From Fusarium oxysporum f. sp. lycopersici 4287 (Eukaryota > Ascomycota > Sordariomycetes > Hypocreales > Nectriaceae): a stretch of 64,000 nucleotides of DNA. The notes beneath the pieces are model-generated. The model had not been told where the DNA came from and did not search any database. It worked only from the letters and a program-made list of their open reading frames with translations. Below, piece by piece: positions 31,439-64,000 of this stretch (within the stretch, counting starts at the first letter, position 1; each line of letters opens with the position of its first letter). Location of the stretch: contig NC_030988.1 in assembly GCF_000149955.1 (NCBI RefSeq), forward strand, positions 4,478,380 through 4,542,379. The letters run 5' to 3'. The translations under genes were made by a program, and so were the position numbers.

Positions 31439-31959
31439 CTATACCGCTTGACTAGTTGTGTTGTCAAACTGTTCGTTGCTTTCGGAGAATATGATCGATC
31501 GGGTCAACTCCGAAAGCACTGAGAATACATCGGTGTCTGAGAGGAACCTATTGAAGGAATCCCGCTCTGTGGCGACGTCCTCCACTTCCACGATGCTGTA
31601 AATCCTATCGTCGAGTTTCGTCCATCTTTCCTTGGCACTTCCTTGTGGTTGTGTCTCGTATCGAGCGACAATTGATTTGCGCATTTTTTCAATCGGATCT
31701 CCATCTGCAGACCTAGGTTGGAGTCCGCAGACGAGCACGGCATACTTGGAAGTCATGAAACACCCGAATCCCTCGCTCATCACTCTATGCAGGGTTTTTG
31801 CCTGCAGAGATTCTGAATTCTTCCAACCGAGATCTTTTTCGTCGTCAAACTCTAAGGATAAGTTGTCGTCGTTTTCGCGAACAAACAACACCCCTCCATG
31901 TGGTGCCCTGTAATTACCACGCAGCTGGTAACCATTGCTTTCGAGGACTGTGCTAATTG

Positions 31960-31967
31960 GTACCCAG
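31960..31967. repeat. Target-site duplication of the hAT element, left copy
   Basis: GTACCCAG, identical to 34582-34589 on the other side of the transposon. Confidence 0.85.
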
Positions 31968-34581
31968 TAGGGATGGGCACGTGCATAATACACATGTGTA
32001 TTAAGCTGCTTTTTATTATAACGAAGCAGCATTTTATTCCTAATAAAAAGCGCGCTTTTTATTGCAATATTACGACCCATTTATGAAGCTGCCCATGGGC
32101 CATATCATACAAACAACCAAGCAAAATTAGGTCAATTTTTCCCCCGCTCCTTCGCTCTCTGACCCATCTTCGACCTCAAGTGTGTCCACCACTGTCTCTT
32201 CTCCGTCGGAGGCGGGTTGGTGAGTGAACTCGCCGACAACAGCGTCAACTTCCAGATTTGATGCGCAATGAATTTCCATATACGTATCTTCGAGTGTAAG
32301 CCAACCGTCTTCTGTCAAATCTTCCCAGCTGACCACCGTAGAATGATCATTGCGATGATCAAGAGGTTGATTCTGAGACTGCGTTATCCTCTCTAGCACC
32401 CGTTCGTTCATGTAGATGAACGCCAACTTGTCAGCGTTGGCTGGTGTGAGTCTGTTGCGTGCCTTGCTGTGGAGGAAGTTAACTGCCGAGAATGATCTCT
32501 CTGAGGGAACTGAATTGGCTATGGTTCCAAAGATCCGGACTGCAAGTGCAGCCAGCTTGCTGCCTTGGTTATCAAGAAGCATCCAAGCATCTAATGGAGT
32601 CCATTCTTTTGAATAGACTAAGCCTCCTGCAGCAAACCGGCCGCCCGATTGTGCTCGGAAGTGGTTAAATTCTCGAACAATATTGATGTAGTCAGCAGGA
32701 TTGACTGCTGACTTAAAGAACTGCAGCACTTTCATCATCAGCTGTTCTTCAAGCTTAGTCCCGACTGTGTCAGGCCGTAATGCAAATCCCGCATAATGAA
32801 TATCATATGTCTGTTTATCCATACGGTTTAACCATACGGAATACAGCTCGCTGAAATTCACGTCTTGATGTTGCTGAGACTCGTCAAGTGCTTTCCATTC
32901 TGCTTTAATCTCCAGCCAACGAGGAATCACATGGCCGATGTGAGCCCGATCGGCTTCTGAGGCACGCTGACGACTGTTGACAGGCTTAATTATGGCCAAA
33001 ACAGTCTCTAGGCGTATCCAGAAGTGAGGGTTATTGACAGACTCCAGCACCTTTGGAAGAAGCTCGAGAGAGCCGGAGGCTAGCTCTGCCCTTACGTCAG
33101 GACGGCGAGCGTATGCTTGGAGAGGCTCTTTACAGCGTAAAACTGACTGTAAAGCATTGAACTGACTGCCCCAGCGTGTGATTACACTAAAGCGAGCAGT
33201 CAGCTATAGCTAGGAGTCAGAAAAACTGAAAGACGCACGCAGATAAAAACGCCTTATGGTGGCCCCAAGCTGCCTTTTGTGCTTCTCTCAATCGAGCCAA
33301 CTGCAGTTTCGACTTCTTGAAGAAGGTGACAATTAATGTAGCGCTTTTGAATGCCTCCTCAAAGAACGGCTGCTCTAGGATGTCCTTGATGAGTAGCTGT
33401 AGCCCATGTGAATCGCAGAGGGAAAAGAAGCAATGTTGGAATTCCTTTCTTGCTGCCAAATGCACATGAGCTTTCCTCATCACGCTATCCGTATCTGTGC
33501 AAAACGAGTTAATTCGCAAGAAGTTGCCCTTGCAAATTATCTCCAGCTCAGGATACAAAAGATCGATGTAGTGCTCAGCCGTGTGTTGAATCTGTCCTGT
33601 ATCAAACGTCTTCCAGTAGAACGCCGTACCATTTGCCACCTGTATCGAGATATTGATAATTCGATGACTTGTGATGTTGTCTGAGGCGTCAAAGATTACG
33701 TTGATATGTTCTGCTTGGTCGAGGATAGCCTGGACTTGATTGTGGTACTGAGAATAAGTCGGGGCTAGCAGCCGCTGTACTCGGCGACGAGACGGTGGTT
33801 GCCAGGCAGTGTTTAGCTTGCTCAACAGAATCCGCATTCGTTTGGACTCAAAGAGGTTAAATGGACGGCCATCAGCAAAAATTGCTATAGCAGCAAGCTC
33901 ATCAAGCATCTGCTTAAAGGTCTTGTCCACTACAGGAAAGTGATGAGTAAGTTGAGGCTGCTGAGACTGTTGCTGCCTTTTGTAATTGGGACAATGGCGA
34001 AGTAAGTGCTTCTTCTGACGAGTAGTGCCCTTGGTTATCTCGTGGCCGCAGTGCTTGCACTTGACTCTAGAGTTCTTGAAACCCGAACTAGCGTCGGAGG
34101 CAAGCGTGATAAATTCTCGGTGGACCTGGTGATCGGCTGGCCTTCCAGGGGTTCTGGGCATTGTAGAAGACACACGGAGGGTCTGAAGGTAGTGGGGAGT
34201 CGAATTGAGAAGTTTCAGGGGGATACATCGACAGACGGTTGAAGGCTGTGGAGAAAAGGAGGTCGGAAAAGGACTTATATTGTTCCTATGCACTAAACCT
34301 ATTATAGAAGGCGCTAAGCCTAAGATAGAAGAGGAAATGTCGCAGGGTAGGCATTAGTAATCTAGCTATATGCTTTAAGTAACTGTGCGGGATGGAATAC
34401 CCCGCACAAGAGAAAACTTAAGACATCAATCAACACATTTGCTGCTGCTCATCATATTCACTCTAACCCTTTAAGCACGCTCAGTGCGACAGGAAATAAT
34501 GCATACAAAGCGCGTCTTGCTTTAAATATTTAATGCAAAAAGCGCATTTTATGTAATGATGCAGCATTAAATCCATCTCTA
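31968..34581 (-). mobile_element. hAT-superfamily DNA transposon, apparently complete
   Basis: The element is 2,614 bp. It is flanked by a perfect 8-bp duplication GTACCCAG (31960-31967 and 34582-34589), the size typical of hAT elements. Its ends are short imperfect inverted repeats (TAGGGATGG at the left and TAGAGATGG read inward from the right). It encodes one transposase with a single intron and no inactivating change visible, so it may be active or was so very recently. Confidence 0.85.
32127..34161 (-). CDS. hAT transposase
   Basis: Exon 1 is 33239-34161 (ATG 34161, MPRTPGRPADHQ; an upstream ATG at 34293 adds 44 residues) and exon 2 is 32127-33186. A 52-bp intron (GTGCGT...GCTGAC...TAG) joins FLSA to VITRWGSQFNALQ in frame, giving about 660 aa. 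An N-terminal BED-type zinc finger is visible (CKHCGHEITKGT...HLLRHC). The RNase H-like core lies in the middle (VIFDASDN, CDSHGLQLLIKDI). The C-terminus carries the hAT dimerisation signature (SVPSERSFSAVNFLHSKARN). The enzyme cuts and pastes the element. All parts of the family appear present, and the TGA at 33217 is inside the intron. Confidence 0.85.
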
Positions 34582-38760: not shown

Positions 38761-41009
38761 AAAACTTTTGCCTATGTATCGCGTGAATCTAAAACTAAAC
38801 AGCTTGTTAGACGGAGCAAAAGTCAAAGACGGTTGTCTGGGGTCCGAGCCGCCTGCGCGAAACTCACGTAGAGATGAGGAAGGTTCACCACGTCGATGTG
38901 CTAAGTCAATTTCCTGTCGCCAATTGCTAGAAATTTATTAGTAGTTAGTTCTAATAACAACACGATATACTCAAGCAGGATCGATGGCTTGAAACTGTAT
39001 CATGAGACCCCCATGCATGAATGAATTGTATTGCCATCTCTGAAATCGCCCCTGCGTGCTGTCAAGCCTAGATTATCTCATTGTTCTTTGCTCTGACCAA
39101 TTACAGCATTTATTGTATGCAGCTCATCCGCTTCTTACCACTTCGAGCTTAGAGGATGCATGCTGACCGGACTAAAGCCTCCGGGGAAACCGTCAGAAAA
39201 CCATCTAACCATGCCAAAACAGGACATTATCCAATCAGACTCTTTCGTACAGGAACCCTACTCAGCTCTAGGGTAATCAGCTTGCTAATTCTCTCTTTTG
39301 CAACTTCGTAGGCTCAAAATATGGTCTAGCAATATAAAAGGCTTGGGAAGATGGGACGTTGATTGGTTGGAAAGGGTTAGAAATGATTAACATTGGCCTG
39401 TCGCAGCTTTTCACGTTTTACCATCTGTTTCAACAATAGGTGGCCAAGAGCGAGATAATGGAGTAAGGGGAATAGGTAAAAGTCAGAAACTCAGAAACGA
39501 TAAAATCTTATGTGTCACGCTGAATCACTCTACCTCTCAATCATGCTACTGTACACACATTCCAATTTGATATTGCTTAAGGGCACAAACGCGACTTCAT
39601 GCCACCACCTTGGCTTTAGTCACCTGGCGATTGTTACAATTCACTGCACCCAATCTCCTAGGACACATCATATCTCTCAAGGGCAACCTAGGGTAAGCTG
39701 GCAGCTAGGGTATAGCGAGACAAGAAGGTGATTCGGCAGGTTATGATTATGCACAAAGACATGAAGAAACATCCAAATCGGCTCTGAAACCTCGGATTTG
39801 TTGATGACTCAGATACTTCTGGACCTTTCTCGCCACTGTGTCGCGAGACATGCGTATCCATCTGTCTGACCTATCGCTTCGACCTGGGGATCTCCATCTC
39901 CGGGCACCACTAGGCGATGAGGTTCAGTCATAGAATAATCATTCTTTTGTCAGGTCATCCGAACCACGGATTCAGCATCAAGTGTATAGCCATATGAATC
40001 GTCAGTCGGGGAGAAACTGTGGGCTCCAGAATCGCTACTTGAGAAGATATGCCCGGTGGAGCTATGCACTAGCCCATCATGGTCCGATAGAGGTGAACGA
40101 TTAGGACAAAGATTTGAGGATGAGGCGCACTTGCTGCAACGTAGCGACTCGTTGGACCTTCCAATATGGTTCTCTTCTGATGGCGTTCCATGTTGTATGT
40201 TAGAGCCGTGTAGCTTCCATTGTGACCGTGCTAAGATGTCACATTCCAGACAGTACGCAGACCAGCGTGGAATGAGGCGTGAATCTGTTCCTACTAAAGA
40301 CATGAAACTCATATAAGCTTCGTAGTTGAACTATGTACTAATGCTCTAGGGCAGCCATTGGACTCTTATAGCATCTCAACTTCAGGCTCGCGATGATAAC
40401 TGCCGTTACAGTTGGCCTGTCTAGGCCGTCGTCTCGGTTGCTGGGCTTGGGCAGGGTACGAGCCATCCACAACTTCACAATGCCGATGCAGAAGAAACAA
40501 AACCGATAGGTCTACGCTCCTAACTGCAACTCGACTCGAAAACCGACGTACATCCTCGATCTAGTTTATCATAGACTTAAAAGTCATGAACGGTATTGCG
40601 GAGCCTAGGTGTGAATGCTTTGGTGGAGCGCTTGCTGCGCTTTCTCATACAGAATCGCAATGTATCAGTCCCTAGCGGCCAAATATGCTAAGAAAGCCAG
40701 GTGCGGTCTCACGCTTCATGATCGTCTTCCTTATTCAATATAGTTCTTCCTCAATTCATAACAGGCTGTATATTACTCTCCTTCAGACAAATCTAGACGA
40801 TTACGTGATAGAAGGTCTAAAGTTGGCCGATGTAGACGTTAGGCTAGGCATGGTACACAGGCAAGTGACGGCAATATCAGAGTTCTTTTCTATCGAAAAG
40901 AACAGATATACTGTACTTGACTCCCCCTCCTCGATCTGGATAACTCGATATCTCTCCAGGGAATATCAATCATCACTTTAAAAGAAGCTTTTGCCTCGAG
41001 AACACCGCT
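38761..41009. other. Long intergenic region, about 2.2 kb
   Basis: No convincing gene. A minus-strand frame at 39950-40312 (120 aa, with CLEC and CSKC pairs, Ser-rich) might be a small zinc-binding protein but lacks other support. A plus-strand frame at 40685-40981 has no motif. Contains the promoter of the HMGR-like gene. Confidence 0.35.
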
Positions 41010-42170
41010 ATGGCTCCTGATTCACGCGACAAGGCCCAGGTTTTGCATGATTTAGCGGACAGGTTCAACCATGCCGCAGACTTGCAATCAGGGAACCTGG
41101 AAAACGTGCGTATCGAGAATTGCATAGGGTTCTGCAAAGTTCCGCTTGGCATTGCAGGCCCGTTACGCTTAGCCGGAACACCGGTGCTCGACGATATCTA
41201 TGCCCCTTTAGCCACATACGAAGCTACCCTTATCGCCAGCTACTCTAGAGGATGCAAGGCCTTTAATGCCTCTGGCGGCATACATATTGAAACTCTGAGC
41301 AATGGCATGTCTCGCGGTCCTGTCTTCGTTTTCCAAAATCCGAGGCGGGCAGTCATCTTTGCCCAAGCGCTACCGGGTATGCAGAACGCATTCGCTAGGT
41401 GGGCAGAAGCGACTAGCAAGCATCATGTTAGGCTCAAGACTATCGAACCTTCCATCATCGGTTCGCAGGTTCATCTTTTGTGCACCTATAGCTGTGGGAG
41501 CGCGGCGGGACAGAACATGGTCACCAAAGCCACACAGTACGCCTGTGAGATGTTGCGAGAGTCATTCGCCGATCAATACAACATCTTGGACTTTTTCATT
41601 GAAGGTCAGCTAGCTTCCGACAAAAAACCCTCCTGGGGAAACGTGAAGAAGGCTCGTGGTGTTGAGACTTTAGTCTGGGGAACGATTTCACGGGAAGTCT
41701 GTCAGAAGATCCTCGGCTGCACCACCGAGCGCCTCTACATGGCCCAGAAGACTCTCAAAGAAGGCGGGATCAGGAACGGTCAGTTTGGTTCCAACATAAA
41801 CACGGTCAATATCATCGCAGCCATGTTCATTGCGACCGGTCAGGACACTGCCAGCACCGCCGAAGCATCCTGGAGCCATCTGACCTCGGAACTTGACCCT
41901 AAGACTGGTGCGCTTTGCATGAGCCTCTATTTCCCGTCCCTGCCTGTAGGCACTGTCGGAGGCGGTACAGGATACCCGATGCAGAAAGAGGCTCTCAAGA
42001 TGCTGCGATGTGACGGAGACGGGCCAGACCAGAAGGAACGGCTGGCCGGGCTCATTGCAGCGTTCAGTCTTGCACTCGACGTCAGCACAAGCTCAGCTGT
42101 CGCGAACGACACCTTTACTGCCAGTCATATGAGGCTTGCTCGTGGAGAAACGCCGCAACCGCATTTGTGA
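41010..42170 (+). CDS. HMG-CoA-reductase-like enzyme, catalytic domain only
   Basis: Single-exon ORF of 386 aa without the membrane anchor of normal fungal HMGR. The fold and all four catalytic positions of the family are visible: Glu36 in IENCIGFCKVPLGIAGPL, Lys in ASDKKPSWGN (about 205), Asp in ATGQDTA (about 277) and His in TASHM near the end. The glycine-rich motif VGTVGGGTGYPMQKEAL is also present. However, the usual GDAMGMN cofactor/substrate loop reads GSAAGQN here. The family reduces HMG-CoA to mevalonate with two NADPH. A soluble, diverged copy near P450 genes may boost mevalonate for a secondary pathway, confer statin tolerance, or have lost activity. No upstream exon is convincing. 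Confidence 0.8.
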   Translation: MAPDSRDKAQVLHDLADRFNHAADLQSGNLENVRIENCIGFCKVPLGIAGPLRLAGTPVLDDIYAPLATYEATLIASYSRGCKAFNASGGIHIETLSNGMSRGPVFVFQNPRRAVIFAQALPGMQNAFARWAEATSKHHVRLKTIEPSIIGSQVHLLCTYSCGSAAGQNMVTKATQYACEMLRESFADQYNILDFFIEGQLASDKKPSWGNVKKARGVETLVWGTISREVCQKILGCTTERLYMAQKTLKEGGIRNGQFGSNINTVNIIAAMFIATGQDTASTAEASWSHLTSELDPKTGALCMSLYFPSLPVGTVGGGTGYPMQKEALKMLRCDGDGPDQKERLAGLIAAFSLALDVSTSSAVANDTFTASHMRLARGETPQPHL

Positions 42171-46225: not shown

Positions 46226-48430
46226 TCAATCAAAGCCCCAACTCTTATGGGATCCCCATTTACGAAAGCGCCCAACCTTCCCGCGCATAACCTCTCGTAA
46301 CGATCTATCCCGCAGCTTTCCTTCTTCCGATTCGTGAACTTGCGTGACCGCCAAAGACTGGGCTGGTTCTATAAGATACGGTAATTGTTGTAGCGCCTCC
46401 CGTGTGGAGGCGAGGTATGCCACGCTCTGCATTGTATCCGGATGGTTTTCTCCAAGCACAAGGCAGCGAAGGTGGAAGGCGGTTTGGTGAAGCTGAAAGG
46501 CTTCGTCATATCGGCCCTGCTGATGGTACGTCGCCGCGAGGTCCGCCATGCTGCTGATCGTATCTGGATGCTTCCCCCGAAGCACCCCTCGTCGCATTTC
46601 TAGTACTTCTTGGCAAATGTTTTCGGCCTCGGCATAACGGCCCTGCTGATGGTACGTCGTCGCAAGGTCCGCCATGCTCCTGATCGTATTTGGATGCTTC
46701 TCTCCAAGCACCTCTCGTCGCATTTCTAGTACTTCTCGGCAAATGCTTTGAGCCTCATCATATCGGCCCTGCACATGGTATGTCGCTGCAAGGTCCGCCA
46801 TGCTTCTGATCGTATGTGCATGCTTTTCTCCAAGCACCTTCCGTCGAAGTTCTAATGCCCTTTTATCAACCGGCTCTTTCTCCCTCCACCGTTCTCGATC
46901 GTAAAGAAAATCCGATACTCTCTGGAATAAAGTTGCTGTCTCGATCTCCGTCCTGCTCACCTCCGCCCACTCCCCTACTCGTACAGCATGCGTCACATAC
47001 TCCTCGCATTGTGCCCATGAAGTTGGTTGCGATGGCGGAAAAAGATCATCTACTATCTGTAGAGCTATGCCAGAATAGTATGCTTCGCTGTTCTCCGGTT
47101 CATTTACTGCACCTGGCGCCTTGCCCGTGGTCGTCTCTACCGAGCTGCTTATCCTCAACCCAAATCGTACGGCTTCTTGCACAAGCTTATGCATCTCATA
47201 ACTTCGCCTGCTATCCTCCTTCCGACGTAGGCCAAGGAAAGAAAATTCGGTCAGACGGGTGACTGCTTCTAGAACCTCAAGCTCCGTAGCCTCTCCAGTT
47301 GACCTCTCGCCGCCAATGTTGTATCGACTAGCAGCTGCCGCCATCAATTCTTGCGTTATGTCCTGACTATCCAGATACGCAATCACATGGAGAATGCCGT
47401 ACGACATCTCGCTCTCCGCTCGAATTCGCTCCGTCGAGATCCTCCAAGTCTCAAGCACGCTGTTCGATACCTCTGGCCGTCGGTGTCGGTCCGTGCCGCT
47501 CATTCTTAGCACTTCCCATCGGGTCTTGCCCTGCCTGAGGAGGTCTAGGTACTTCTCGGCTGACATTGACATACGCCTCATGTATACGCCGCCTTGCGAG
47601 ATCGCTAAGGGTAAGCATCGTAACTCCTCCAATAGAGCGTCCACACTTGCCTCCCTCAAAGTCGACGGCTCATCTCTAGCTACTGCGAGAAGCGTCGTCG
47701 CCTCATCTATAACCATAGATCGCACCTCGATACCGCGACGCGATCCAACGAGCGTGCCGGCGATACGCGCATCTCGACTCGTCCATAACACCGTCCCTTG
47801 CGATGTGCAAGGTACATATCTGTATAGATTCTGGTTCTCGTTCGATCCTTCTCCCTTGAATTGTCGGCCCACTCCAAACAACCTCAGGTTATCAGCGTTG
47901 TCGAGGACCAGCAGCCATTTCGGCCGCCTTTCGATCTCATTGCGCACTGCATCGAGCAGATCCGTCCCGTCAAGCTGCTCGTCGACCCCGAGCTTCTTGC
48001 CGATCGTCTTATAATCGGCTAGAAAAGTCGTCTCACTGTCGGCATGCACCCAAAATACGCTGCATTCCTCGTCGGCGTCGCATCGTCGATATGCGTAATC
48101 TAGCGCGATCTGTGTCTTGCTTGGTTCGTTCCTCTGTTAGCCCTTTCGCTACACCGTAGTGTGCCGAGTGGAGACCTACCCTGATCCTCCCAAGCCCCAA
48201 AGCGCAGCGCTACGGGATCCCGGCGTCGGTGGCAAAAGCTTATCTAGTCTGTCGATGAAATGCCGACGATGGACCAGATCCTCGTTGCGGGGATACGGAA
48301 TGACGCGAACGACTTCGGCATGGGCCGCTGGGTGGGGCAAGTGGTAATGGATATCCCCCTGGTTAATTCTGGCATTGTCGCCAAATCGGCTGCAAGTGAC
48401 GCCGCGTCGGTGGAACGCTGGCTGATCCAT
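46226..48430 (-). CDS. NLR A: amyloid-type motif, NB-ARC, TPR
   Basis: Exons 48180-48430 and 46226-48119 join over a 60-bp intron inside the P-loop, restoring GLGGSGKTQIALDYAY (Walker A); the total is 714 aa. Residues 15-30 (RFGDNARINQGDIHYH) form a short Gly/Asn motif in place of a large effector domain. It resembles NLR-associated amyloid motifs and a repeat in the adjacent HELL-like protein. The NB-ARC domain follows: WLLVLDNADN (Walker B), VLWTSRDARIAG (RNBS-B-like), LPLAISQGGVYMRRM (GLPL-like) and MHKLVQEAVR (MHD-like). The C-terminus has three 42-residue kinesin-light-chain-type TPRs and a partial fourth. Fungal NLRs of this build sense non-self and trigger regulated cell death. Divergent to the effector-like gene at 48622. 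Confidence 0.85.
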
Positions 48431-48621
48431 TTTGTTGCTAATTATTTTACAGCACCAATCTTCTGGAAGTCGCCAAATTTGTACAGTCTCACGTCCGGAG
48501 AGGGGTAGCAATAAGGCTGAGAACGTGACGAGACACAGCCTCACTGATTGGTTAAAGACAGAGCGCATTGCCATCAGATGACCATAATCGTACTTTTACC
48601 TACCACCAACAGACTACAACA

Positions 48622-49997
48622 ATGGTACTCACCTCTCGGCCTAGCTCTGATATAGGCTTCATTCGCTGATTTTTATCGCGCAGGCAGAGGCAATAGGAGC
48701 AGCGGCTAGCATCATCGGCATTATCGGTGCGGCATTTACTGTCATCCAGGAGATTCGAAGCGCGCGGGGCAGGGTCCAAGGCACATCCGAGACGCTGGAT
48801 AATATGTCTAAGCATCTGGACGCTATCGATGAATCACTTGGTCTTGTTCGCGAGGAAGAAAAGCTGCAAACGGCCAGGGTCGAACTGCAGGTGAAGGCCA
48901 TCACCAACATTGCCACTGAGCTTAGATCATTCCTGGATAACCTTGCTGCCAGGCAACGAGAGAAGGCCGTGTCACAGTTCTTCCACGCCCTTAAGTCGGG
49001 CGACAAGGACGACAAAAAGTTGCAAGGCATCCTGGACCAGCTTGACCGGGCTCGTAATGAGCTCGGGTTGCGGATCTCGGTGGCTCAAGTCGGCTTGTTG
49101 GGAAACCTCCAAGACGGCTTTCGAGTTGCATTCGGCGTTCTCGAGCAGACAAACACTAGGGTCAACAAAGTGCTCGGGATCAACTTGGCTCTTCTGGATA
49201 TTGTGAAGAACCGAGCGCTGCAGCAGACAGGTCAGACATATATGTTAGTGATCGCACAAAACAGACCTACTGACGAGATTTCATAGCGGATGGATTCATA
49301 CCAGTTAATGTTGCTGACATACTAGCGATGGGAATGTCCGCCCCCGATAATACGACGAGCATGAGCAGCTCCAACGAGGTGAGGGAAACAAATATTTATG
49401 GCAATGTGACGCTTGGTCAGGCCCGAATAATGACGGGCAATATTGGGGTAGAAGGTTGGCAGAAAATGGCAGGTCGCAAGACGACGATTGCCAACAATCA
49501 GTTCGGTCACGACGTCCGAATCATCACTGGTGACATGGGAGGGGAGGCGGCGAGGGGCTTCAACGATTCCTTCTGGAAGTGAGATTATTAAAGTCTACGT
49601 TCGAGCATTGCTATTGAACCCGTTACCACTAGTCATTTCCATCCGGAACTACTGTATCAGCATCGATCGCCCTGAACTATTCACAACGATAACTTTCTCC
49701 ATGAGAAGACCACTGTCTCCGCAAAGCAGTGATTGCATAAGGTGCCGCAATAAATGCTCATAGAGAAAGGGATTCCACAGCGGTGCCCTCGAACTTAAGA
49801 TAATCCAGGTAAGTCTCGAATTTTGGAATATGTAGCAGTATCGCTGTAAAATCACCTAGAAAGGCGCTGACGAACCAAGTATGCAGGCAGGTCAAAGTCA
49901 TTCAACCGAGCGTGGCGTTGCGGACAACTTATTGGGAGATAGAGTTTGGATCAACCAAGGTGATGTGGGAGGAAACATGACATTTGGGCCTACGTGA
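48622..49997 (+). CDS. HeLo/HELL-like effector with three C-terminal amyloid-type motifs
   Basis: Proposed exons are 48622-48624 (the ATG alone), 48684-49230, 49326-49578, 49766-49808 and 49887-49997; all junctions are GT/AG and in phase, total 957 nt, 318 aa. The N-terminus (MAEAIGAAASIIGIIGAAFT) is hydrophobic with a glycine zipper, followed by a helical bundle to about residue 180, as in HeLo/HELL/SesA domains that permeabilise membranes. The C-terminal 110 residues hold three motifs: 206-224 (NIYGNVTLGQARIMTGNIG), 240-256 (NNQFGHDVRIITGDMGG) and 295-311 (DNLLGDRVWINQGDVGG). These resemble the N-terminal motif of the neighbouring NLRs, as in NLR/effector amyloid pairs. The tail after exon 3 is less certain; without it the protein stops at 49582. 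Confidence 0.7.
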
Positions 49998-50339
49998 AGC
50001 GTCTGATTTGACAGTTCCCTGAGGTCCGTTGTTGACTGTATATTCCGGTCAAAGTATGGCTTCGTCGAGAAGGTACGCCATTCCCTTCATGCAGTGATTA
50101 TCTAGGGCTGAGTGTGGCTGAAGTCGGGCGTGTGGCTGGTTAAAGTGGTTTAGGTTCGTCATCCTGTCATCCTGTGATCATGTCATCCTGTCACCCTAGC
50201 ACCTGGCCCCGCCTTTATGAGTAATATTTAGCCTTGTAACTCAGGCTCACATACTTACACAAGCCAGGGTAGTTTGGGACCGACCACTTCTTTGTGTTTC
50301 CACTTTTCCCTCTTTTGTCTCGTTACCAACATCCAGGAG
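49998..50339. other. Intergenic with short CATCCTGT repeats
   Basis: Four degenerate copies of catcctgt lie at about 50160-50200 (tcatcctgtcatcctgtgat). No gene. Confidence 0.5.
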
Positions 50340-50605
50340 CCATAACCTGTGACGAGGCTGGCGTGAAGCTGGAGATGACAGCACCGTACACGCCCGACAC
50401 TAACCCGATTGAAGAGTACTTTGCTGAGATGAAGGCTTATGTGAAGCTGCGGTGGGATGAGCACATCAGTCTCATCCAGAGAGATTTTGGATCCTATGTC
50501 AGGTCATGCGTGCAAACTGTAGGGGAACACAGGCGAGCGCTGAGGGACACTTTCGTAATGCAGGACTGGCGGTTGAGCAACCTCTGTAGAGGCACGAGCC
50601 ACTAG
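50340..50605 (+). pseudogene. Fragment of a Tc1/mariner-type DDE transposase
   Basis: The stretch encodes EAGVKLEMTAPYTPDTNPIE and EYFAEMKAYVKLRW, the C-terminal catalytic block (PYSPDLNPIE-like) of DDE transposases of fungal Tc1/mariner elements, then runs to a stop. Everything upstream of the block, including the first catalytic Asp, is missing and no inverted repeats are seen. An old fragment. Confidence 0.65.
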
Positions 50606-50713
50606 ACCTTAGAGACCACGCTAGACATTGTTTGTAGTTTAAGCTAGAGGGAAAGGAAATAAGGTGTGAGGCATAAAGCATGGGAGAGAAAACAAAATAT
50701 GATCATCATTCTG

Positions 50714-52072
50714 CTACCCTAGAGCTTCCTCAATCCAACGTGGCACATCATTCATGAACGAAAGCGCAACCCCCAATTGAACTCCTCTGTCGGTGTAAAA
50801 CTCAGCACCTACTTCAGAGTGGACATGCCTAAGATCGAGGCATGCCTCTCTTGTGATTTCGTAAGCACATCGAATGTTTTGCTGCCAACGAGGGCTATCC
50901 ACTTGATCCTGTTGCCATTCGTGGTATCTTTCTAGAGCCTGGTTTCTCCGCATGGGGATGACAAGGTCGATCGGTCGCTGCCGAGTCGCCACCGACCCCT
51001 GCACTTCTCCCCGCGCTTCAGCATTGGACTCGTTAAAAATCTCACCCTGATGCTGACCAGGATGACCAGGACAGGTGACGTTGATATTAATTGGAGACGA
51101 ACTGTCAGATCTCTTACGCTTTAGCCTTCTTCGCTCCGAGCTCTCCTCTTCATTCTTGTAGATCACCTGGCGGATGTTTTCAGGCACGTCATCGTGCGTC
51201 CTCAGCAGATTTCCTTCCTCAGCAAAGTCAACAAGCATGCTCAGGATGTTAGTATCGAGCTTGTAGTGCTTCTTGCTCTCCGGATCACGCCAGCAATAGA
51301 ACTGCGAGTTCACGCAAGGGACACCGGTGCAGTGCAGAAGCTCGTAGACTTCTTTCCACACGGGACGAGAGCCCGTCGACTCTTCCTGATCAGCAAGCAG
51401 TTGGTCTCTGGCAATGAGCTGTCGGCCTGTAGCCCCACGGCCGCGACTCCGGATAGTCGCAGCTGCCGGCTGCATGACCTCTTTATAAACAAAAGAGATA
51501 TAAATTCTTAGCTTATTACCTTCACGGAAGAGAGGAGCCCAGCCTCTCAGCTTATCTTCTATCGTCCTTTAGTCCACAACGAGGCCATCAAAGCGCTTCC
51601 TCATGTTACGTTCACTACGTTTCTCTACGCTCACAATAACGGTTGTCTCATCAGATTCGTACCTCGGCTCGGGAAGTTTGTCCTTAACGGTCGTCGCTAA
51701 GTCGAGGCTTAGAAACTTGTCCCAGTAGGCACCGGGGGCAAGGGTCAGATTCTCCTCCGTGATCTCGACCAGCTTGGACAGTCTGCCCTTCTTAAGCTGA
51801 AGCTTCCATTCGATATCGTAGTGAATGCACGTTGGATCGTCTTCGTCGTCTCGGAAGTTGGGGTCCCAATCACTTAGCCCAAGCAATGGCAGGCGTCTGT
51901 CTTGGAGAGGGGTGCCATAAGCGCGCGGAGTTTCGCAGGTCCGAAATGGCGGAGTTCGGCCATCAAGGTCAAACTCGCCATCCAAAGAGAAGGGGCTGTC
52001 GTTGGCACGGCGAGGATCGTAATCTGGCGCATACATGTCAGGCGAGAAGGAACATCGAGGAGGCAAACTCAT
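50714..52072 (-). pseudogene. Uncharacterised repeat-family protein gene with in-frame TAA
   Basis: ATG at 52072 (MSLPPRCSFSPDMYAP). One frame runs from there to 50714, interrupted only by a TAA at 51569-51571. The first part includes RRLPLLGLSDWDPN and CIHYDIEWKLQLKKGRLSKL. After the stop it continues RTIEDKLRGWAPLFREGN, then a basic RGRGATGRQL segment, WKEVYELLHCTGVPC, WRDPESKKHYKLDTNIL and a nuclear-type basic patch (RRRLKRKRSDSSS). I recall a dispersed ascomycete family of this type with Trp at the stop position (VVDW), often in variable regions; TGG to TAA fits two G-to-A changes as in RIP. Function unknown. Confidence 0.5.
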
Positions 52073-52548
52073 GGCGACGGCTGGCAGCGAGAAGGTGAGG
52101 AAGGACACTGGGCGAGACGAGGGGCAACCAGTAGGTGGGCAGGCCATTGCCAACAAAGAACAAAGGACACATTTCCTTCACGGTTGCCTAGAACACGTGA
52201 CCATAAGCTCATCAGCAGGATGGAATGTTCAGACCTTGACTCAGGGCAACGGCGTGTTAAACGTTGGGGAAGAACCAACGGTGCGGCAAAAGTACAGTAT
52301 CGAAATTGTTTTATTATTAGTACATATGGGTTCAAGCTGAAGACCCCGACACCTTAGACGAGATATGGTCATGCGCCTTGAAGCCAGGGCGAACAAAATC
52401 GAAGATGATGCGATGACGTAGGATCACGTGAGCGGCTGAAGTAAGGAATGTTGGTCTTTCAGCTTTCTGTGCTTTGTGCAATTGCAAACAATGCCAGAAC
52501 CCCTCCTGTAAAGGTCCGTGGACCGATTGCAATTAAATCGACATCAGG
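52073..52548. other. Promoter region between divergent genes
   Basis: About 470 bases between the minus-strand gene and NLR B. No coding signal I trust. Confidence 0.4.
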
Positions 52549-55324
52549 ATGCCAGCACATTCACCGCATGAGCAACGCGAGGTCAGCCATAACCAGTTCC
52601 GCGACCATACTGTCATCCACCAGGGAAACGTTCAAGGGAACGTCTACTACGGCGCGCCCCACCCGGCGGCCCGCGCCGAAGTCGTCCGCGTCATTCCATA
52701 TCCCCGCAACGAGGATCTGGTCCATCGACGGGATCTCATCGACAGACTAGATAAGCTTTTGCCATCGACGCTGGGATTGCGCAGTGCCGCGCTCTGGGGC
52801 CTAGGAGGATCGGGGTAGGTGTCCGCTTTCGGCATGGTACGATTGTCGCGAACGGGCTAACAGAGGAATGAATCAAGCAAGACACAGATCGCGCTAGACT
52901 ACGCATATCGACGATGTGACGCCGACGACGACTGCTACGTATTTTGGGTGCATGCCGACAGCGAAGCGACTTTCCTAGCCGATTATAAGACGATTGGCAA
53001 GAAGCTCGGGATCGACGAGCGGCTTGATGGGACAGACCTGCTCGATGCAGTGCGCAACGGGATTGAAGCTCGATCGAAATGGCTGATGATCCTCGATAAC
53101 GCCGACAACCTGAGGTTATTTGGAGTGGGTCAAGTGAAAGGGGAAGGGATGGCCGAGAACCTATATAAATACATTCCTCATGCATTGCAAGGGACGGTGC
53201 TGTGGACAAGTCGAGACGCGCACATTGCAGGCACGCTTGTTGGAGCGCGACGTGGTGTCGAGGTGCAGTCCATGGCTGTAGATGAGGCAACAACACTTCT
53301 CGCAAGGGTCCGAGATGAGCCAATAAGTACAGAGCAGGCAGTGGAGGAGGCAGGAGTGGATGCTCTTCTGCAGGAACTACAGTGCCTCCCGTTGGCGATC
53401 TCACAAGCCGGCGCATACATGCGGCGGATGTCGATGACAGCCGAACAGTATCTGGATCTCCTCAGACAAGGCAAGACCCGATGGGAGGTGCTGAAGGTGA
53501 GCGATGCCGATCGACATCGACGACCGGAGGTATCGAACAGTGTGCTTGAGACGTGGAGGATCTCGATAGAGCGGATCCGAGTGGAGAGCGAGACATCATA
53601 CCGGATATTACACGTGGTTGCGTATGTGGACTGTCAAGACATACCTCACGAGCTAGTAGCAGCGACGGCTCGTCGATACGATAAAGAGGATGAAGAGGAT
53701 GTCATTTCAACCGGACAAGTCTCAGACCTTGAGGTTTTGGAAGCAGCCACACGCCTGACAGAGTTTTCTTTCCTCAGCCTTCGCCAGACAGAGGATAGTG
53801 GGAGAAGGTACGAGATGCACAAGCTTGTGCAAGAGGCTATACGATATGGGCTGAGGGTGAGAGGCTCTGTAGCAACAACCATTGGCAATGCATTGAGGGC
53901 AGACGAGGGGCCAAAAGAGGATGAGGGATACTACTGTGGCAAGGCGCTGCAGGTAGTGGGCGACCTCTTCCCGTCATCAGAACCTACTACATGGGCACGA
54001 TGCGAGGAGTACCTGACGCATGCCATTCAAGTAGGGGAGTGGGCGGAGGTAGGCGGGACAGAGACGGAGACAGCAAATTTACTTCAGAGAGTATCATACT
54101 TTCTTTATGAACGAGGTCGGTGGAGAGAGAAAGAGCCGGTAAACAGTCGGGCTTGGGGTCTGCGACGAGAGGTGCTCGGGGAGAAGCATCCTGATACAAT
54201 CGACAGCATGGCAGACCTCGCGGCGACATACCATGCGCAGGGTCGATATGAGGAGGCCGAAGGGCATCTACCAAGAAGTACTAGAACTCCGACGAGAGGT
54301 GCTCGAGGAGAAGCATCCTGATACGATCAGCAGCATGGCAGATCTCGCGGCGACATACCATGCGCAGGGTCGATATGAGGAGCCCGAAGGCATCTACCAA
54401 GAAGTACTAGAACTCCGACGAGAGGTGCTCGAGGAGAAGCATCCTGATACGATCAGCAGCATGGCGTCACTCGCGACGATATACCATGCTCAGGGTCGAT
54501 ATGAGGAGGCTGAGAAACTGAAAGATAAAGTACTGGAACTCCGACGAGAGGTGCTTGGGGAGAAGCATCCTGATACGATCAGCAGCATGGCGGAACTCGC
54601 GGCGACATACCATGCTCAGGGTCGATATGAGGAGGCTGAGAAACTGAAAGATAAAGTACTGGAACTCCGACGAGATGTGCTCAGGGAGAAGCATCCTGAT
54701 ACGATCAGCAGCATGGCGTCACTCGCGACGATATACCATGCGCAGGGCCGATATGAGGAGGCCGAAGGCTTCTACCAAGAAGTATTAGACCTCCAACGAG
54801 ATGTGCTCGGGGAGAAGCATCCAGATACGATCAGCAGCATGGCGGAACTCGCGGCGACGTACCATAATCAGGGCCGATATGAGGAGGCCGAAGGCATCTA
54901 CCAAGAAGTATTAGACCTCCAACGAGAGGTGCTCGGGGAGAAGCATCCAGATACGATCAGCAGCATGGCGGAACTCGCGGCGACGTACCATAATCAGGGC
55001 CGATATGAGAAGGCTGAGAAACTGAAAGATAAAGTACTGGAACTCCGACGAGATGTGCTCGGGGAGAAGCATCCAGATACGATCAGCAGCATGGCGGAAC
55101 TCGCGGCGACGTACCATAATCAGGGCCGATATGAGGAGGCCGAAGGCATCTACCAAGAAGTATTAGACCTCCAACGAGAGGTGCTTGGGGCGAAGCATCC
55201 AGATACAATACAGAGTATGGAGTATCTTGCCTCAATCCAGGAGGCTCTACAGCAGCTACCAAGTCTCAGAGTCAGTCCAGTCTCTAACAATCACAAAAGC
55301 GGACGAAAAGGAAGCCGAGTCTAA
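52549..55324 (+). pseudogene. NLR B: amyloid-type motif, NB-ARC, long TPR array, 1-nt frameshift
   Basis: Exon 1 is 52549-52814 and exon 2 starts at 52878; the 63-bp intron again splits the P-loop. Residues 15-35 carry the motif NQFRDHTVIHQGNVQGNVYY. The NB-ARC domain is closely related to NLR A (WLMILDNADN, VLWTSRDAHIAG, LPLAISQAGAYMRRM, MHKLVQEAIR). The TPR array has eight 42-residue units and a partial ninth. In the first unit, at 54262-54264, the run GAAGGGCATC has one G more than all sister units (GAAGGCATC); this shifts the frame and ends the protein at 54321. The downstream array (54270-55324) is completely open in the other frame. So it is a one-base frameshift in a repetitive tract: real, strain-specific, or an assembly error. 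Confidence 0.8.
54166..55250 (+). repeat. 126-bp TPR-coding tandem array
   Basis: Eight full units of 126 bp plus a partial one, each encoding REVLGEKHPDTISSMAELAA and the helix GRYEEAEG/K. Units are nearly identical in DNA. Two linker versions alternate irregularly (GIYQEVLELR and KLKDKVLELR), as do SMASLATIY and SMAELAATY, which points to shuffling by recombination. Confidence 0.85.
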
Positions 55325-55791: not shown

Positions 55792-55811
55792 TGTATATAT
55801 TTTAGCTAGAT

Positions 55812-56666
55812 ATGCTGAACAAGACTGAAACACCACGGTCGTCGGTTCAATCGTATGCAGACGCAGCCAGGATGACATCCACCAGCATGTCCAGTCAATC
55901 TTCATCTGCAGCCCGATCGGCAACTCCAGAACCGGTGTTCTGCACAGTCGACACATCCAGAGTTCCTGAAGACCATCTTGGAGACGCTACACCAACAATG
56001 ATTCGCAAGACCGTGGAGCAGGAGATGCGACAGTCAAGTGACCAACCTCACTGGCGATGCGTCGCAGTGACCAGAGATGGACGGAATGCCAACCGCCTCA
56101 GGATTATAGGTAGGAACGAAGAAGAAATACAGAAGATCAAGACTATCCTTGAAACCAGGAAAGCTCCAGGTGCAAGAGTCCTTCGGGACCAACTATATCC
56201 TATCAAAGTTGATAGCATGAATCGTATGGCCGTCTTTGACCAGGCGTTTAACATCCTCCCTGGAGCAATAGAAGCCTTAAACCAGGAGAATGAAGTCCAG
56301 ATTGCCAAGGTAGCCTGGCTGAGCCGGAAGGCCAACCCCAAGTCATATGGATCCATGGTGGTGTACCTCACTAAGAGCAGCGACGCCAAGAGACTACTGC
56401 AGGAACACTACTTTCTCGTCGCAGGTGAATCGGCATATACGAGTGTATTTGAGCAGACTACTGGACCGGAACAATGCTATAACTGCCAAGAGCTCGGCCA
56501 CAAAGCATACGCATGCAGCAAGCCTCGAGTATGTGCAAGGTGCGCCGCTGAGGGTCATCATCATAGTGAGTGCCAGGCGCAGATACCAAAGTGCGTCCTC
56601 TGCAGTGGTCCGCATGAGTCATTCAGTAGAAATTGCCTGAAACTCCACCCCAGGCGGCATGAGTAA
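55812..56666 (+). CDS. LINE ORF1 (gag-like, zinc knuckles)
   Basis: 284 aa. The N-terminus is Ser/Thr-rich, and the middle resembles an RNA-binding fold. The C-terminus has three CCHC-type knuckles ([28 protein letters not shown] and [15 protein letters not shown]). It would coat the element RNA as the LINE ribonucleoprotein. Its TAA overlaps the ORF2 start by 8 bases (56659-56666), as expected for translational coupling. The frame is intact. Confidence 0.85.
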
Positions 56667-59600
56667 GTTGTTCCGGGTGATGCAACTGAATGTGAGAAAG
56701 CAGGATGCGGTGCACGAAAGCCTTATGAACGATAAGAATCTTCGAGAATACACAGCGATCGCGATCCAAGAGCCTCAGGCACACCAGAAGGACGGCAAGC
56801 TACTGACGATTCCTATGAGACATCCGAGATGGGTCAAGATGGTCCCGACTGTTTGGAGGGAGGGAAGATGGCCGATCCGAAGCATGTTATGGGTGAACAA
56901 GGATGTGGAGGCGGAGCAGATACCGATACAGACGGCAGATATGACGGCAGCCATCTTGCGACTTCCTGGACGCCTAGTACTGGTTGTGTCCGTTTACGTA
57001 CCGGGACGAGACGATGAGGCGTTGCAAGGTACCTGCAACCTGCTGCATCAGGTCATTTCAGGCACAAGAAGACAAGCCGGTGGGCTGGTGGATGTGGTAA
57101 TTGTTGGAGACTTCAACCGACACGACCAATTATGGGGAGGAGATGAGATATCCTTGACGAGGCAAGGCGAAGCGGATCAGATCATCAGCCTTATGACTGA
57201 GTTTGATCTAACGAGCCTGCTTCCAAGGGGGACGAAGACGTGGAGTGGCGGAGATTTCGAGACAACAGTCGACCTGGTCCTTGCTTCGGCAGACCTAGCG
57301 ACCTCGACTGTCAAGTGTATGATACACGGCACAGAGCACGGATCCGATCATCGTGCTATCGAGACGGAGTTCGATGTCTCTGTTCCGATGCCGCAAGCCC
57401 AGGAGCGACTTTTGCTCAAGAACGCACCATGGAAGAAGATCAACGCCCGGATTGCCGAGGCGTTAGAGTCCATTCCGGAACAAGGCACCGTACAGCAGAA
57501 GACTGACAGGCTTATGACAGTGGTGCTGGAGGCAGTCCGCGCGCTAACACCCAGAGCTAAGCCGTCACCATACGCAAAGCGTTGGTGGACCTCAGACCTC
57601 ACGCAACTTCGGCAGATATACACACACTGGAGGAACCGTGCCAGAGCATCGAGACGTGCGGGACGAGCATGCGAGGAGCTTGAGGACACGGCGAGAGGAG
57701 CAGCAAAGCAGTACCATGATGCCATCAGACAGCAGAAAAAGACGCATTGGAACGAGTTTTTAGCCGATAACGACAACATATGGAAGGCAGCAAAGTATCT
57801 CAAGTCCGGAGACGATACAGCATTTGGCAAAGTACCCCAACTCACGAGGGTCGACGGCACACGTACGACCAACAATATCGAACAGGCCGAGGAGATGTTA
57901 GTCACGTTCTTCCCTCCATTGCCGCAGCACATCGAGGTGGAAGGGGATCGACCCCAGCGCGGATCTGCTGTCGTCATGCCAAATATCACTATGGAGGAGG
58001 TAGAGCGACAGCTTTTCGCGGCGAAATCATGGAAAGCACCCGGCGAAGATGGGCTACCAATCGCAGTCTGGAAACAGATCTGGCCTTCTGTCAAGCACCG
58101 AGTCTTCTCACTTTTTCGTGCTTCGTTGGAAGATGGCGTGCTGCCGGATCAATGGAGACATGCCAAGATCATTCCTCTGAAGAAACCAAACAAGGAAAAC
58201 TATTCGATCGCGAAGGCATGGAGGCCCATCTCGCTTCTATCTACCCTGGGCAAAATACTAGAGGCGGTCGTCGCAGAAAGGATCTCGCATGCTGTTGAAA
58301 CACACGGATTACTGCCAACAAATCACTTTGGAGCTCGTAAACAACGTTCCGCTGAGCAGGCTTTGATGCTGCTGCAAGAGCAGATCTACGCCGCCTGGCG
58401 AGGTCGATGGATCCTTAGCCTGGTGAGCTTTGACGTCAAAGGAGCTTACAACGGGGTGTGCAAAGAGAGACTCATCCAAAGACTGAGAGCAAGGGGCATA
58501 CCAGAGGATCTACTTCGCTGGATCGAAGCTTTTTGCTCGGATCGCACAGCGACTATTCAGGTCAACGGACAGACATCCGAGAAGCGAGAGTTGCCACAAG
58601 CCGGGTTGCCGCAGGGCTCCCCTCTGTCCCCGATCCTGTTCCTCTTCTTCAACGCGGACCTTGTCCAGCAACGCATCGATTGTTATGGGGGAGCGATAGC
58701 GTTTGTGGATGACTTAAACTGCGTGGGTGACAGGTCCAACCGCAGAAAGTACCCACAAGAGGGGATCAAAGGGATCATTAAGAAAGCTCTAGACTGGGAG
58801 AGAAGAAGTGGCGCGACGTTCGAGACAGAAAAGGACGGCGATCATACACTTCACGCGGAAAGCATACAAGTCCGACGAGGAACCTTTCGCGATCAGGGGA
58901 CAGCTCATTCGGCCCAAGTCTCAGGTCAAGGTTCTGGGAATGATCATGGATGCCGGCCTCAAATATAAAGAGCACATTGCACGGGCAGCGGCTAAGGGAT
59001 TGAACGCTGCGATGGAGCTGCAAAGGCTCAGGGGTCTTACTCCGAGGACAGCGAGGCAGTTGTTCGCAGCCACGGTGGCCCCGGTCGTGGACTACGCCTC
59101 AAACGTATGGATGCATGCATGCAGGTATAGAAGAGCCAGCCCTATCAACCGGGTTCAGAGGATTGGGGCAAATGCAATCGTGGGGACATTCCTCACAGTG
59201 GCTACAAGCGTAGCAGAAGCAGAGGCACATATCGCCAGTGTACATGAGCGGTTCTGGAAACGGGCCATCAAGATGTGGACTGATCTACATACCCTTCCGA
59301 CAACCAACCCTCTCCGAAGCTCTACATCTCGCATTCGAAAGTTCAGAAGATACAATCGCTCGCCATTCTACGAGGTAGCAGTGGCACTCAATGAGATCCC
59401 GATGGAAGAACTAGAAACGATCAACCCTTTCACGTTGGCACCCTGGGTAGAACGGGTGCAGACTATAGTAGATGATGGGGATAGTTTAGGGACAACACAA
59501 GCAGATCTAGGATGGGCGGTACGGGCAGCAGTGAGCAGTTCGGCGCGGAATGGGGTAGTCGGAGTTGGCGGGGTCATCGAGATCCCCACCTCGGTGCGAG

Positions 59601-60433
59601 GAGGACCGAAGCTTGAGCGCTTTTCCTTCACGCTCGGCATGAGGACGGAGCAGAACCCATTTTCCGGACAACTAGCAGCGATGGCTTACGCTTTGAGACA
59701 CTTACCCGACCTTGAGTATCGAAGCGTGGCACTGTTGGCGAGCAACAAAGCCGCCGTGCTCACAGTCCGAAACCCTCGCCAGCAGTCCGGTCAAGAGTAT
59801 GTTAAATGCATATATGATTCCATCAATGTATTGAGGGTCAAAGGAAACGTGGTGGCTGTCATATGGATGCCCACCAGTGCTGAACACAGGCTCCTGAAAA
59901 TGGCTAAGAAAGAGGCGCGAAGTGCGAGCCAAGACGGTGCCGTCCCGGCTCAGAAGTTTCCCCAAATGCGATCGACGACCCTGAATATAGCCCGATCGAG
60001 CCAGCGTGCAAACCAACGGCTACCAGACAATGTTGGGAAGTTTTCGAAGAAGGTTGATGCTGCGCTCCCGGGTAAGCACACTCGATTGCTCTATGATGGC
60101 TTGTCACGGAGAGAAGCCAGCGTGCTAGCACAACTTAGGACAGGCATGGCCAGATTAAATGGATACCTCTTCCGGATCAGCATAGCAGCGTCACAGAAAT
60201 GCGCATGCGGACAAGCGACAGAGACAGTAGAGCACTTTCTCTTTCGATGCACGAAATGGACAGCGCACAGGACTGAGATGCTGCAGTGCACGGAGACATC
60301 GAGAGGAAACCTCTCGTTCTACCTAGGAGGAAAGTCACCATCAGATGACGCAAAGTGGACGCCAAACATGCAGGCAGTCCATGCAACTATACGATTTACA
60401 ATGGCCACAGGCCGACTCGACACACAATACTGA
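56659..60433 (+). pseudogene. LINE ORF2 (endonuclease, reverse transcriptase, RNase H-like), frameshifted
   Basis: The first frame (56659-58968) encodes an APE-type endonuclease ([38 protein letters not shown]) and the reverse transcriptase ([28 protein letters not shown], and AFVDDLN at the FADD catalytic site, where Val replaces Ala). At 58831-58834 one extra G (GAAAAGGACG) shifts the frame. The second frame carries on from about 58835 to 60433 with the thumb, an RNase H-like region of weak match (VVGVGGVI, NPFSGQLAAMAYAL) and a C-terminal CCHC (CACGQATETVEHFLFRC). With one indel and no stops, this copy decayed recently. Confidence 0.8.
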
Positions 60434-62659: not shown

Positions 62660-64000
62660 ATGTTCCAATCCAAGCCGATCCTTAGCCAGGACATCTGGCG
62701 CAGCGACCGTGACATTGTGGCGTCTACTTCCAGACGAGATGTAGCCCTGCACTACGAGCGGGCAAGGTCGATATTCCGTCATAGTGGTACGTCCGAAGCC
62801 TTTATTGGAGAGCGTCACTAAACAGTTTGGCAGGTCTGTCACAACAGGATATTGAGAATCTAACCCCGAAATTCTGGGATTTCCAATTCGATTGTAAGTC
62901 TGGCAGATCTGAGCGCATACCTGTAGCATACTGATCAAGGCAATGGAGTGATTGCTGCTCGCGACATGACGGCCTTCATCATCGTAGCGATACAGGTAAA
63001 CCTATGTATAAGGACACTTTGTTCCTTCGTCAAAGGGCGACCCGACCTACAAGACTTGGTTGATAAGCTCCTGAACTTTGATATCTGCGGTGGATTTATG
63101 CTGACCGAAGCCGATCATGGTTTGGACGCTCGTAACTTGGAAACGACGGTCACACTACTGCCTGATGGCTCCTACGATCTACATACCCCCCACGTAGGAG
63201 CTTCAAAGGCAATGCCTCTGACAACGCCCTACTGTGGCATGCCTCGCATAGCTATAGTATTTGCTCGTCTCTTAGTTGACGGGAAAAGCCATGGCGTGAA
63301 GCCCTTCCTCGTTTGTCTCAGCGACGCTTGCGGACTGCGGCCTGGAGTTACATCACGTATTCTGCCCACACGGCCGGGTACGAAACCGTTGTACCACTCT
63401 CTGACGGCATTTAACCATGTCGATTTGCCCTTCAGTGCTCTGCTCGGCTCATCCTCAGAACCGGAAAACGATCGTCTTGATTTTCTACGCCAGATTTGGC
63501 GGGTGTCAGCTGGAACGCTGTCCCTCTCTATAATGGGCATCTCCGCCATCAAGGTTGGAACGCGTGTAGCTGCTGTCTACATCGAGCGAAGGACAATCAC
63601 GGCACCCGATGGGCCTGTACCCGGAGAGATCATGAGCTTCAGCACCCAGCAGCGTCCAATTGTCGAAGGATGGGTGCAAGGCAAGGTCTTGCATGCATTC
63701 GCTCGTTGGACCATAGGGATGCGCCCTAATCTTAGCGATGCGACGCAGCACGCGCTTGCCGCAATTTTCAAGGCGACAGTAATGAAAGCCTCCCAAATCT
63801 TGAGACCCCTCACCGAAAGGTGCGGGTGGCAGGGCCTCTGTGCATATAATCAAATAAGCGAGCTAGATTCAACATTACAGGGAATCTCGATTGCCGAAGG
63901 AGACACACTACTGTTGTGCATTCGTATGTGCTGAGCTGATTTTTACCTGCTGACATTATCTTGACAACTGACGATTTATTTCCTAGATTTTATGTCAGAG
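62660..64000 (+). CDS. Acyl-CoA oxidase/dehydrogenase-like enzyme, copy 2 (partial)
   Basis: Exons 62660-62786, 62834-62893, 62949-63923 and the first 14 bases of a fourth exon (from 63987) are visible; the gene runs off the window. Exon sizes 127, 60 and 975 bp are identical to copy 1 at 13569-15439. The protein starts MFQSKPILSQDIWRSD and has the same motifs (FWDFQFD, AARDMTAF, LTEADHGLDARNLETT, TRPGTKPLYH). In the signature loop copy 2 has ADHG where copy 1 has IGHG. No stop or frameshift is seen. It is the inverted paralogue of copy 1, 47 kb away, so one duplication with inversion explains both. Confidence 0.8.

Follow-up and report, generated by a model that had tools for sequence, protein, structure and literature searches.

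The DNA analysed here is a 64,000-bp stretch of the Fusarium oxysporum f. sp. lycopersici 4287 genome (NC_030988.1, positions 4,478,380–4,542,379), further referred to as the window. The locus at 46226..55324 is probably an amyloid signalosome composed of fungal NOD-like receptors (NLRs) and a HELL-type effector. It carries a diverged motif resembling the HET-s-related amyloid motifs (HRAMs) and is arranged as a recurrent fork of two receptors and one effector. According to the gene models, the order is NLR-A (minus strand), effector (plus) and NLR-B (plus), the effector lying between the two receptors (Table 1). Amyloid formation, templating and cell death may be expected here by analogy with NWD2/HET-S and FNT1/HELLF. 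Ligand binding to the tetratricopeptide repeats (TPRs) of either receptor would cause that receptor to oligomerise, its clustered N-terminal motifs (r0 heads) would nucleate a beta-arch stack, and this stack would template the effector repeats r1 and r2. The freed helical bundle of the effector would then attack the membrane, and the cell would die. Both receptors would feed the one shared effector.

An initial annotation of this DNA had proposed an amyloid-signalling module with two receptors to one effector. At the sequence level the proposal is well supported by the likeness between receptor heads and r2, by seven receptor–effector–receptor triads read from locus tags and by a HELL/SesA-like effector domain; the three-motif effector that it included does not stand.

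Table 1. Features of the locus, in window coordinates
Feature	Position	Strand	Details
NLR-A, NB-ARC/TPR receptor	46226..48430	−	714 aa; exon 1 48430-48180, 60-bp intron, exon 2 48119-46226; identical to FOXG_16268 (P0082)
r0 head of NLR-A, HRRGVTCSRFGDNARINQGDI	48350..48412	−	residues 7-27; 17 of 20 class A heads outscore 200 shuffles (r2 profile)
Effector	48622..49582	+	281 aa; exons 48622-48624, 48684-49230, 49287-49582; exon model equals annotated FOXG_16109 (100% identical)
HELL/SesA-like helical domain (likely)	48684..49230	+	most of effector residues 2-184; SesA match and predicted helical bundle
Effector motif r1	49382..49444	+	residues 216-236; from alignment A1; weak match to heads
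Effector motif r2	49475..49537	+	residues 247-267; r2 profile finds NLR heads in 88/112
C-terminal diglycine/aromatic tail, GGEAARGFNDSFWK	49538..49579	+	FW plus one residue ends 27/30 aligned proteins
Solo r0-like ORF	49881..49997	+	38 codons; contains GDRVWINQGDV; resembles a lone receptor head
Tc1-like DDE transposase remnant	50348..50605	+	DDE_3 match below cut-off (E 0.0094); shares 87% identity with the transposase part of P0003
Uncharacterised gene	50714-52177	−	two ORFs in the same frame, separated by one stop or an intron
NLR-B, NB-ARC/TPR receptor	52549..55324	+	exon 1 52549-52814, exon 2 from 52878; reading frame disrupted within the TPR array
r0 head of NLR-B, EQREVSHNQFRDHTVIHQGNV	52570..52632	+	residues 8-28; 43 of 47 class B heads outscore 200 shuffles (r2 profile)

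Receptors, effector and their motifs

Both NB-ARC/TPR genes, at 46226-48430 on the minus strand and from 52549 on the plus strand, begin with F-[GR]-D-x-x-x-I-x-Q-G-[DN], as had been read from the sequence initially. They have the layout of fungal NLRs, an NB-ARC domain with a P-loop (GLGGSGKT) followed by TPRs, and each carries a short intron at the P-loop. Pfam matches in NLR-A comprise TPR, DUF7779 and a weak NB-ARC. The TPR_10 model scored 9e-44 in NLR-A and 4.9e-98 in the tail piece of NLR-B; the NB-ARC matches (0.0051 and 6e-5 on the exon-2 pieces) were below the cut-off.

The first exon of the effector consists of the ATG only. It is followed by the helical domain and a variable linker. 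The C-terminal module then comprises r1, a 10-residue loop, r2 and the aromatic tail, in this order. The stop codon occupies 49580-49582. FW plus one residue forms the end of 27 of the 30 aligned effectors, including this one, and the remaining three end within a few residues of the same point. A three-motif effector was rejected given the stop at 49580 and the relatives ending at or near the same place: GDRVWINQGDV, counted earlier as the third motif, sits beyond the stop in a separate open reading frame (ORF) of 38 codons at 49881-49997. A helical-domain gene with related C-terminal motifs is indeed located between the receptors, and it holds two such motifs.

The domain class of the effector is likely HELL/SesA-like. 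The matches of this protein to PF17107 (SesA, E 0.014) and PF17111 (0.081) were below the cut-off; among its relatives 24/30 and 13/30, respectively, matched at E ≤ 10, the best values being 5.1e-5 and 0.0022. Structure models predict a helical bundle in the N-terminal domain. MLKL and plant coiled-coil (CC) domains are present among the best 50 rows of VIA-align 2, and the HET-s HeLo structure is absent from these rows. A sequence search of the PDB, started from the alignment of effectors, gave a list of 12 weak matches, HET-s and HELLF not among them.

For the comparison of motifs, an r2 profile of 21 columns was built from 27 effectors (three of the 30 in alignment A1 were dropped for gaps) and an r1 profile from all 30. 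Of the 814 NLR matches 120 were listed, and 112 of these formed the sample, eight sequences that did not start with M or did not exceed 550 aa being left out. By head, 20 belong to class A and 47 to class B, and the other 45 are unclassed. The best window of the r2 profile fell within the first 60 residues in 88/112 NLRs, against approximately 5.4 expected, and 80/112 beat all 100 shuffles. With the r1 profile these numbers were 27/112 and 5/112. Five control windows of the effector had an N-terminal best window in 1–11 NLRs and beat the shuffles in 0–2. When the classes were taken separately against 200 shuffles, r1 picked out 0/20 A heads and 1/47 B heads (for r2 see Table 1). As judged from these profiles, the likeness of the heads exceeds chance for r2 and is weak for r1. 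Since the heads are found by the r2 profile and scarcely by the r1 profile, they resemble r2; a likeness of r0 to r2 has been reported for HRAM1 and HRAM4 (PMC4518210). The head and the effector tail of a canonical HRAM1 pair of the same genome (C12) stayed at background in the r2 test (z 0.06 and −1.4).

A related divergent pair is located at C9:84500-94000. Its effector-like ORF (282 aa) is 28% identical to the effector and has PigL_N/SesA matches near 1e-4; the partner is a P-loop NTPase ORF, NACHT-like by eye, with the N-terminus INFGNHARLHQGN. In the r2 test this head reached z 2.1, and some shuffles scored higher.

Two receptor classes around one effector

Genomic linkage was studied using locus tags. 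Positional tags are available for 26 Fusarium entries among the 79 effector matches. Tag order served as a proxy for gene order, strands being known for this genome only, and the NLR lists (120 of 814, plus 52) make all linkage counts lower bounds. At least 11/26 tagged effectors have a class A NLR at the neighbouring tag (FOCG_17619, FRV6_08856, ACKAV7_001921, FOQG_18566, BFJ70_g17223, AU210_016180, FDENT_1168, NW760_012662, AU210_016216, FAUST_9266 and FOXG_16268). In at least seven of these 11 the triad is complete, with a class B NLR one to four tags off on the opposite side (FOCG_17622, FRV6_08858, ACKAV7_001926, FOQG_18568, BFJ70_g17220, AU210_016178 and FDENT_1166). The window is one further triad, established by reading the DNA. 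All the linkage was seen within Fusarium.

Heads and bodies of the receptors were compared in six triads, the seventh having been found later. Over residues 1-38, identity is 34% between the A and B receptors of the same locus, as against 81% for A–A and 89% for B–B between loci. For residues 39-330, with the nucleotide-binding part, every comparison averages 84–85%, and for residues 331-500, 67–71%. The heads split by class and the body identities are alike; hence classes A and B differ in the head only. A test for conversion between A and B within a locus was positive in one of the six triads, FOCG, where a TPR stretch of 264 residues is the same in both receptors; in the other five the longest shared stretch (30–56 residues) does not exceed that between loci (21–81). 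Fungal NLRs are known to exchange repeats both within a gene and from one gene to another (PMC4986451).

The same data bear on whether both receptors serve the effector. Class A might be the only cognate receptor, B being a paralogous NLR that was kept nearby by duplication and recombination and acts on another effector or on none. The neighbouring tag is indeed held by A in 11/11 loci with any linkage, B being up to four tags away, and B is found in places that lack this effector (on C1 and C15, B-type heads have no effector match near them). Yet the fit of B heads to r2 is no worse than that of A heads (median z 6.2 versus 5.3), and B lies across the effector from A in at least 7/11 loci, and we consider an A-only pairing improbable. 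The fork of two receptors remains the preferred reading. The recurrent A–effector–B triad, with classes that differ only in a 38-residue head, provides a natural test of the idea that several NLRs act on one effector, and of how far amyloid heads may diverge and still template the same effector.

A further proposal concerns the core-sealing position 20. Here Asp is found in 23/23 A heads and in 29/30 r2 repeats, and Asn in 43/47 B heads and in 26 of the 29 readable r1 repeats (30 examined). This single position suggests that A and B heads may mirror the effector repeats r2 and r1, respectively; the mirror reading is weakened by the fact that r1 otherwise fits neither A nor B heads well. If it were true, a mixed A/B nucleus would imitate the r1/r2 stack, that is, the receptor would be heteromeric or of the AND type. 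We give little credence to the reading to which this proposal belongs, namely a previously unrecorded family of amyloid motifs in which two receptors, alike in body but not in head, work on one effector as a matched pair.

The genome contains three near-identical copies of the locus, at C3:1.66 Mb, C3:4.53 Mb (the window) and C6:2.79 Mb. Comparison of the other two with the window, over 9.9 and 9.8 kb, gave identities of 99.2% and 99.0%, respectively. All three encode an identical effector and an NLR-A of 714 aa, and the start codons of these divergent genes are 191 bp apart. The NLR-B frame, counted from the ATG, has 569 aa in the window and 737 aa in the other C3 copy, and it is intact (903 aa) on C6. 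The window copy could therefore be a decaying one, its fork no longer working within a triplicated, transposon-rich block: NLR-B is frame-broken in 2/3 copies, a transposase remnant and a long interspersed nuclear element (LINE) lie nearby, and the copies are about 99% identical. We hold this to be unlikely, given that NLR-A and the effector are intact in 3/3 copies and NLR-B in one, and that frame breaks in near-identical repeats could be assembly errors.

Receptors with such heads or bodies were also observed elsewhere. NLR exons with B-type heads (75% identical) are found at C1:5987185 and C15:1693468 with no effector match nearby, and they are possibly orphan receptors able to signal in trans. 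NLRs with related bodies and other N-termini include P0139 (Madurella fahalii), P0157, P0190 and P0197. Their N-termini are a HRAM1-looking head (EEQARVQVGN) or precomputed PNP_UDP, HeLo and SesA domains, an instance of head swapping on one receptor body.

Relation to HRAMs and known signalling systems

The initial annotation had also suggested that the motif forms a class apart from the HET-s, PP and sigma types. Profile searches agree with this. The HET-s/HRAM1 models PF11558 and PF17108 gave no match at E ≤ 10 to the effector, its tail or the heads, HMMER filters dropping most matches above about 0.1, and none at the locus in the genome search. The PP and sigma models PF17046 and PF17106 likewise gave no match at E ≤ 10 to the effector, tail or heads, the positive control covering the HET-s models only. 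In this control, the HRAM1 pair at C12:1782500-1790500, the effector matched HeLo (9.6e-53) and PF11558 (2e-21), and the NLR head matched PF17108 (1.1e-12). As the motif escapes the Pfam models of amyloid motifs, existing catalogues of signalling amyloids in fungi may have gaps, even for a much-studied species.

The HRAM layout, on the other hand, is wholly kept. HRAM effectors have two C-terminal repeats of about 21 aa with a loop of 6–18 aa (PMC4518210); here two repeats of about 21 aa are separated by a loop of 10 aa, r2 is followed by an aromatic tail, and profiles and locus tags place a single r0 at the N-terminus of the adjacent NLR. Gly at position 19 is present in 22/23 A heads and 45/47 B heads and is invariant in both repeats of A1 (G234, G265). 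Position 15, for which HRAMs prefer a positive charge, is R in r1, r2 and A heads and mostly V in B heads. The motif thus reads as a diverged HRAM-like one. We name it HRAM-like and do not file it as a HRAM; the profile comparison covered the HET-s, PP and sigma models. Twenty-two HRAM1 and three HRAM2 are given for F. oxysporum in Table 1 of PMC4518210.

Heads and tail might also interact without forming amyloid, the tail being a small folded tandem module to which the head binds as a partner peptide or with which it co-folds. Loop and tail are strongly conserved, whereas HRAM loops are reported to be non-conserved (PMC4518210), and the models predict a strand–strand–helix arrangement twice in the C-terminal module. 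This module is, however, modelled with low confidence (predicted local distance difference test, pLDDT, below 65 in most blocks), and in its spacing, Gly19 and aromatic tail it follows the HRAM proteins whose beta-solenoid is known. We regard a non-amyloid contact as quite unlikely.

Several results weigh against an amyloid signalosome at this locus. Foldseek gave no match at E ≤ 0.001 with either effector model. In VIA-align 2 the MLKL and plant CC domains score no higher than unrelated helical bundles, which do as well as MLKL against the effector models. The hydrophobic core of HRAMs (positions 5, 8, 10, 16 and 18) is incomplete: positions 5 and 16 agree with it, as does position 10 for the most part (r1 has T there), but position 8 is occupied by N or S, and at position 18 the effector has T and the heads have L/Q/M or Q. 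The core pattern is said to hold "in general", and HRAM4 has Q at 18 (PMC4518210). Besides the weak likeness of r1 to the heads (27/112, with 5/112 beating the shuffles), the best r2 window lies away from the N-terminus in 24/112 NLRs. Among Trichoderma NLRs 13/18 heads match r2, and no match named Trichoderma occurs among the 79 effector matches; the head class thus extends beyond this effector, and head likeness is not specific to species that have it. Finally, 15/26 tagged effectors have no class A neighbour among the NLR matches listed, and clustering of NLRs is in itself common among fungi (PMC12258605).

The closest known systems share parts of the design. In FNT1/HELLF of Podospora anserina (HRAM5) an NLR adjoins a HELL-domain effector, with two HRAM repeats in the effector and one in the NLR (PMC7889193, PMC7885112), but there is one receptor there and two here. 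NWD2/HET-S (HRAM1) has the same overall logic, an r0 resembling r2, two repeats and an aromatic tail; it differs in the NACHT/WD receptor, in the HeLo domain and in that the HET-s Pfam models match the HRAM1 pair and not this locus. In PNT1/HELLP(/SBP), which uses the PP motif, PNT1 of P. anserina is also an NB-ARC/TPR protein beside a HELL effector (PMC7885112); the motif there is single, and Chaetomium globosum has one receptor to two effectors. The GDQN pair of F. oxysporum Fo5176 combines an NLR and a SesA-domain effector in the same species and represents a recently added motif family, but its published pattern, NxxxGxQYxxxGxGDQNxVSxxxxQxN, differs from the motif described here, and one receptor is described (PMC12261475). 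The het-eN/sesA/sesB (sigma) cluster of Nectria haematococca, a Fusarium relative, likewise joins an NLR with a SesA-type effector (PMC3321046); its motif is different, it has two effectors to one receptor, and no sigma model matched here.

According to published descriptions, an amyloid-signalling gene cluster combines a single NLR with one effector or several (PMC7889193). The activation of one effector by different NLRs was named as a possible advantage by Loquet and Saupe (PMC5485727), and among open-licence PMC papers this proposal was all that was found on an amyloid locus with two NLRs and one effector. The literature search found no paper with the motif strings or FOXG_16268.

Other features of the window

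The solo motif between the effector and NLR-B scored 15.0 with the r2 profile (medians 7.2 for A heads and 9.3 for B heads), 26.8 with the B-head profile and 14.9 with the A-head profile, and none of 2000 shuffles reached any of these values. Its r1 score was reached by 38/2000 shuffles. The motif has no NLR body behind it; it may be what is left of a third receptor, or an amyloid peptide that stands alone. It is identical in 3/3 genomic copies, which may reflect only recent duplication.

Further downstream lies the Tc1-like transposase remnant. A genuine effector–transposase fusion, as in P0003, was rejected; an annotation running across a transposon remnant is the more likely, though not proven, explanation. 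In the adjoining minus-strand gene the ORF piece 50714-51568 gave no Pfam match at E ≤ 1. Within the window no Rfam match was found at gathering thresholds.

Downstream of NLR-B, a LINE-like retroelement occupies 55806-60430 on the plus strand, with a zinc-knuckle-looking ORF that precedes an endonuclease and a reverse transcriptase (RVT_1 1.4e-24). The minus strand has ORFs at 31442-34353 that likely belong to a hAT-type transposon (DUF659, E 3.8e-12 in 33220-34353). The ORF at 40944-42167 on the plus strand, in a transposon-rich stretch, has a strong HMG-CoA reductase match (E 1e-86). Two ORFs, at 14116-15156 (minus) and 62927-63931 (plus), have nearly the same first 40 residues, and one of them shows a weak match to the acyl-CoA dehydrogenase middle domain (5e-5, below the cut-off); the pair is one gene repeated at both ends of the window.

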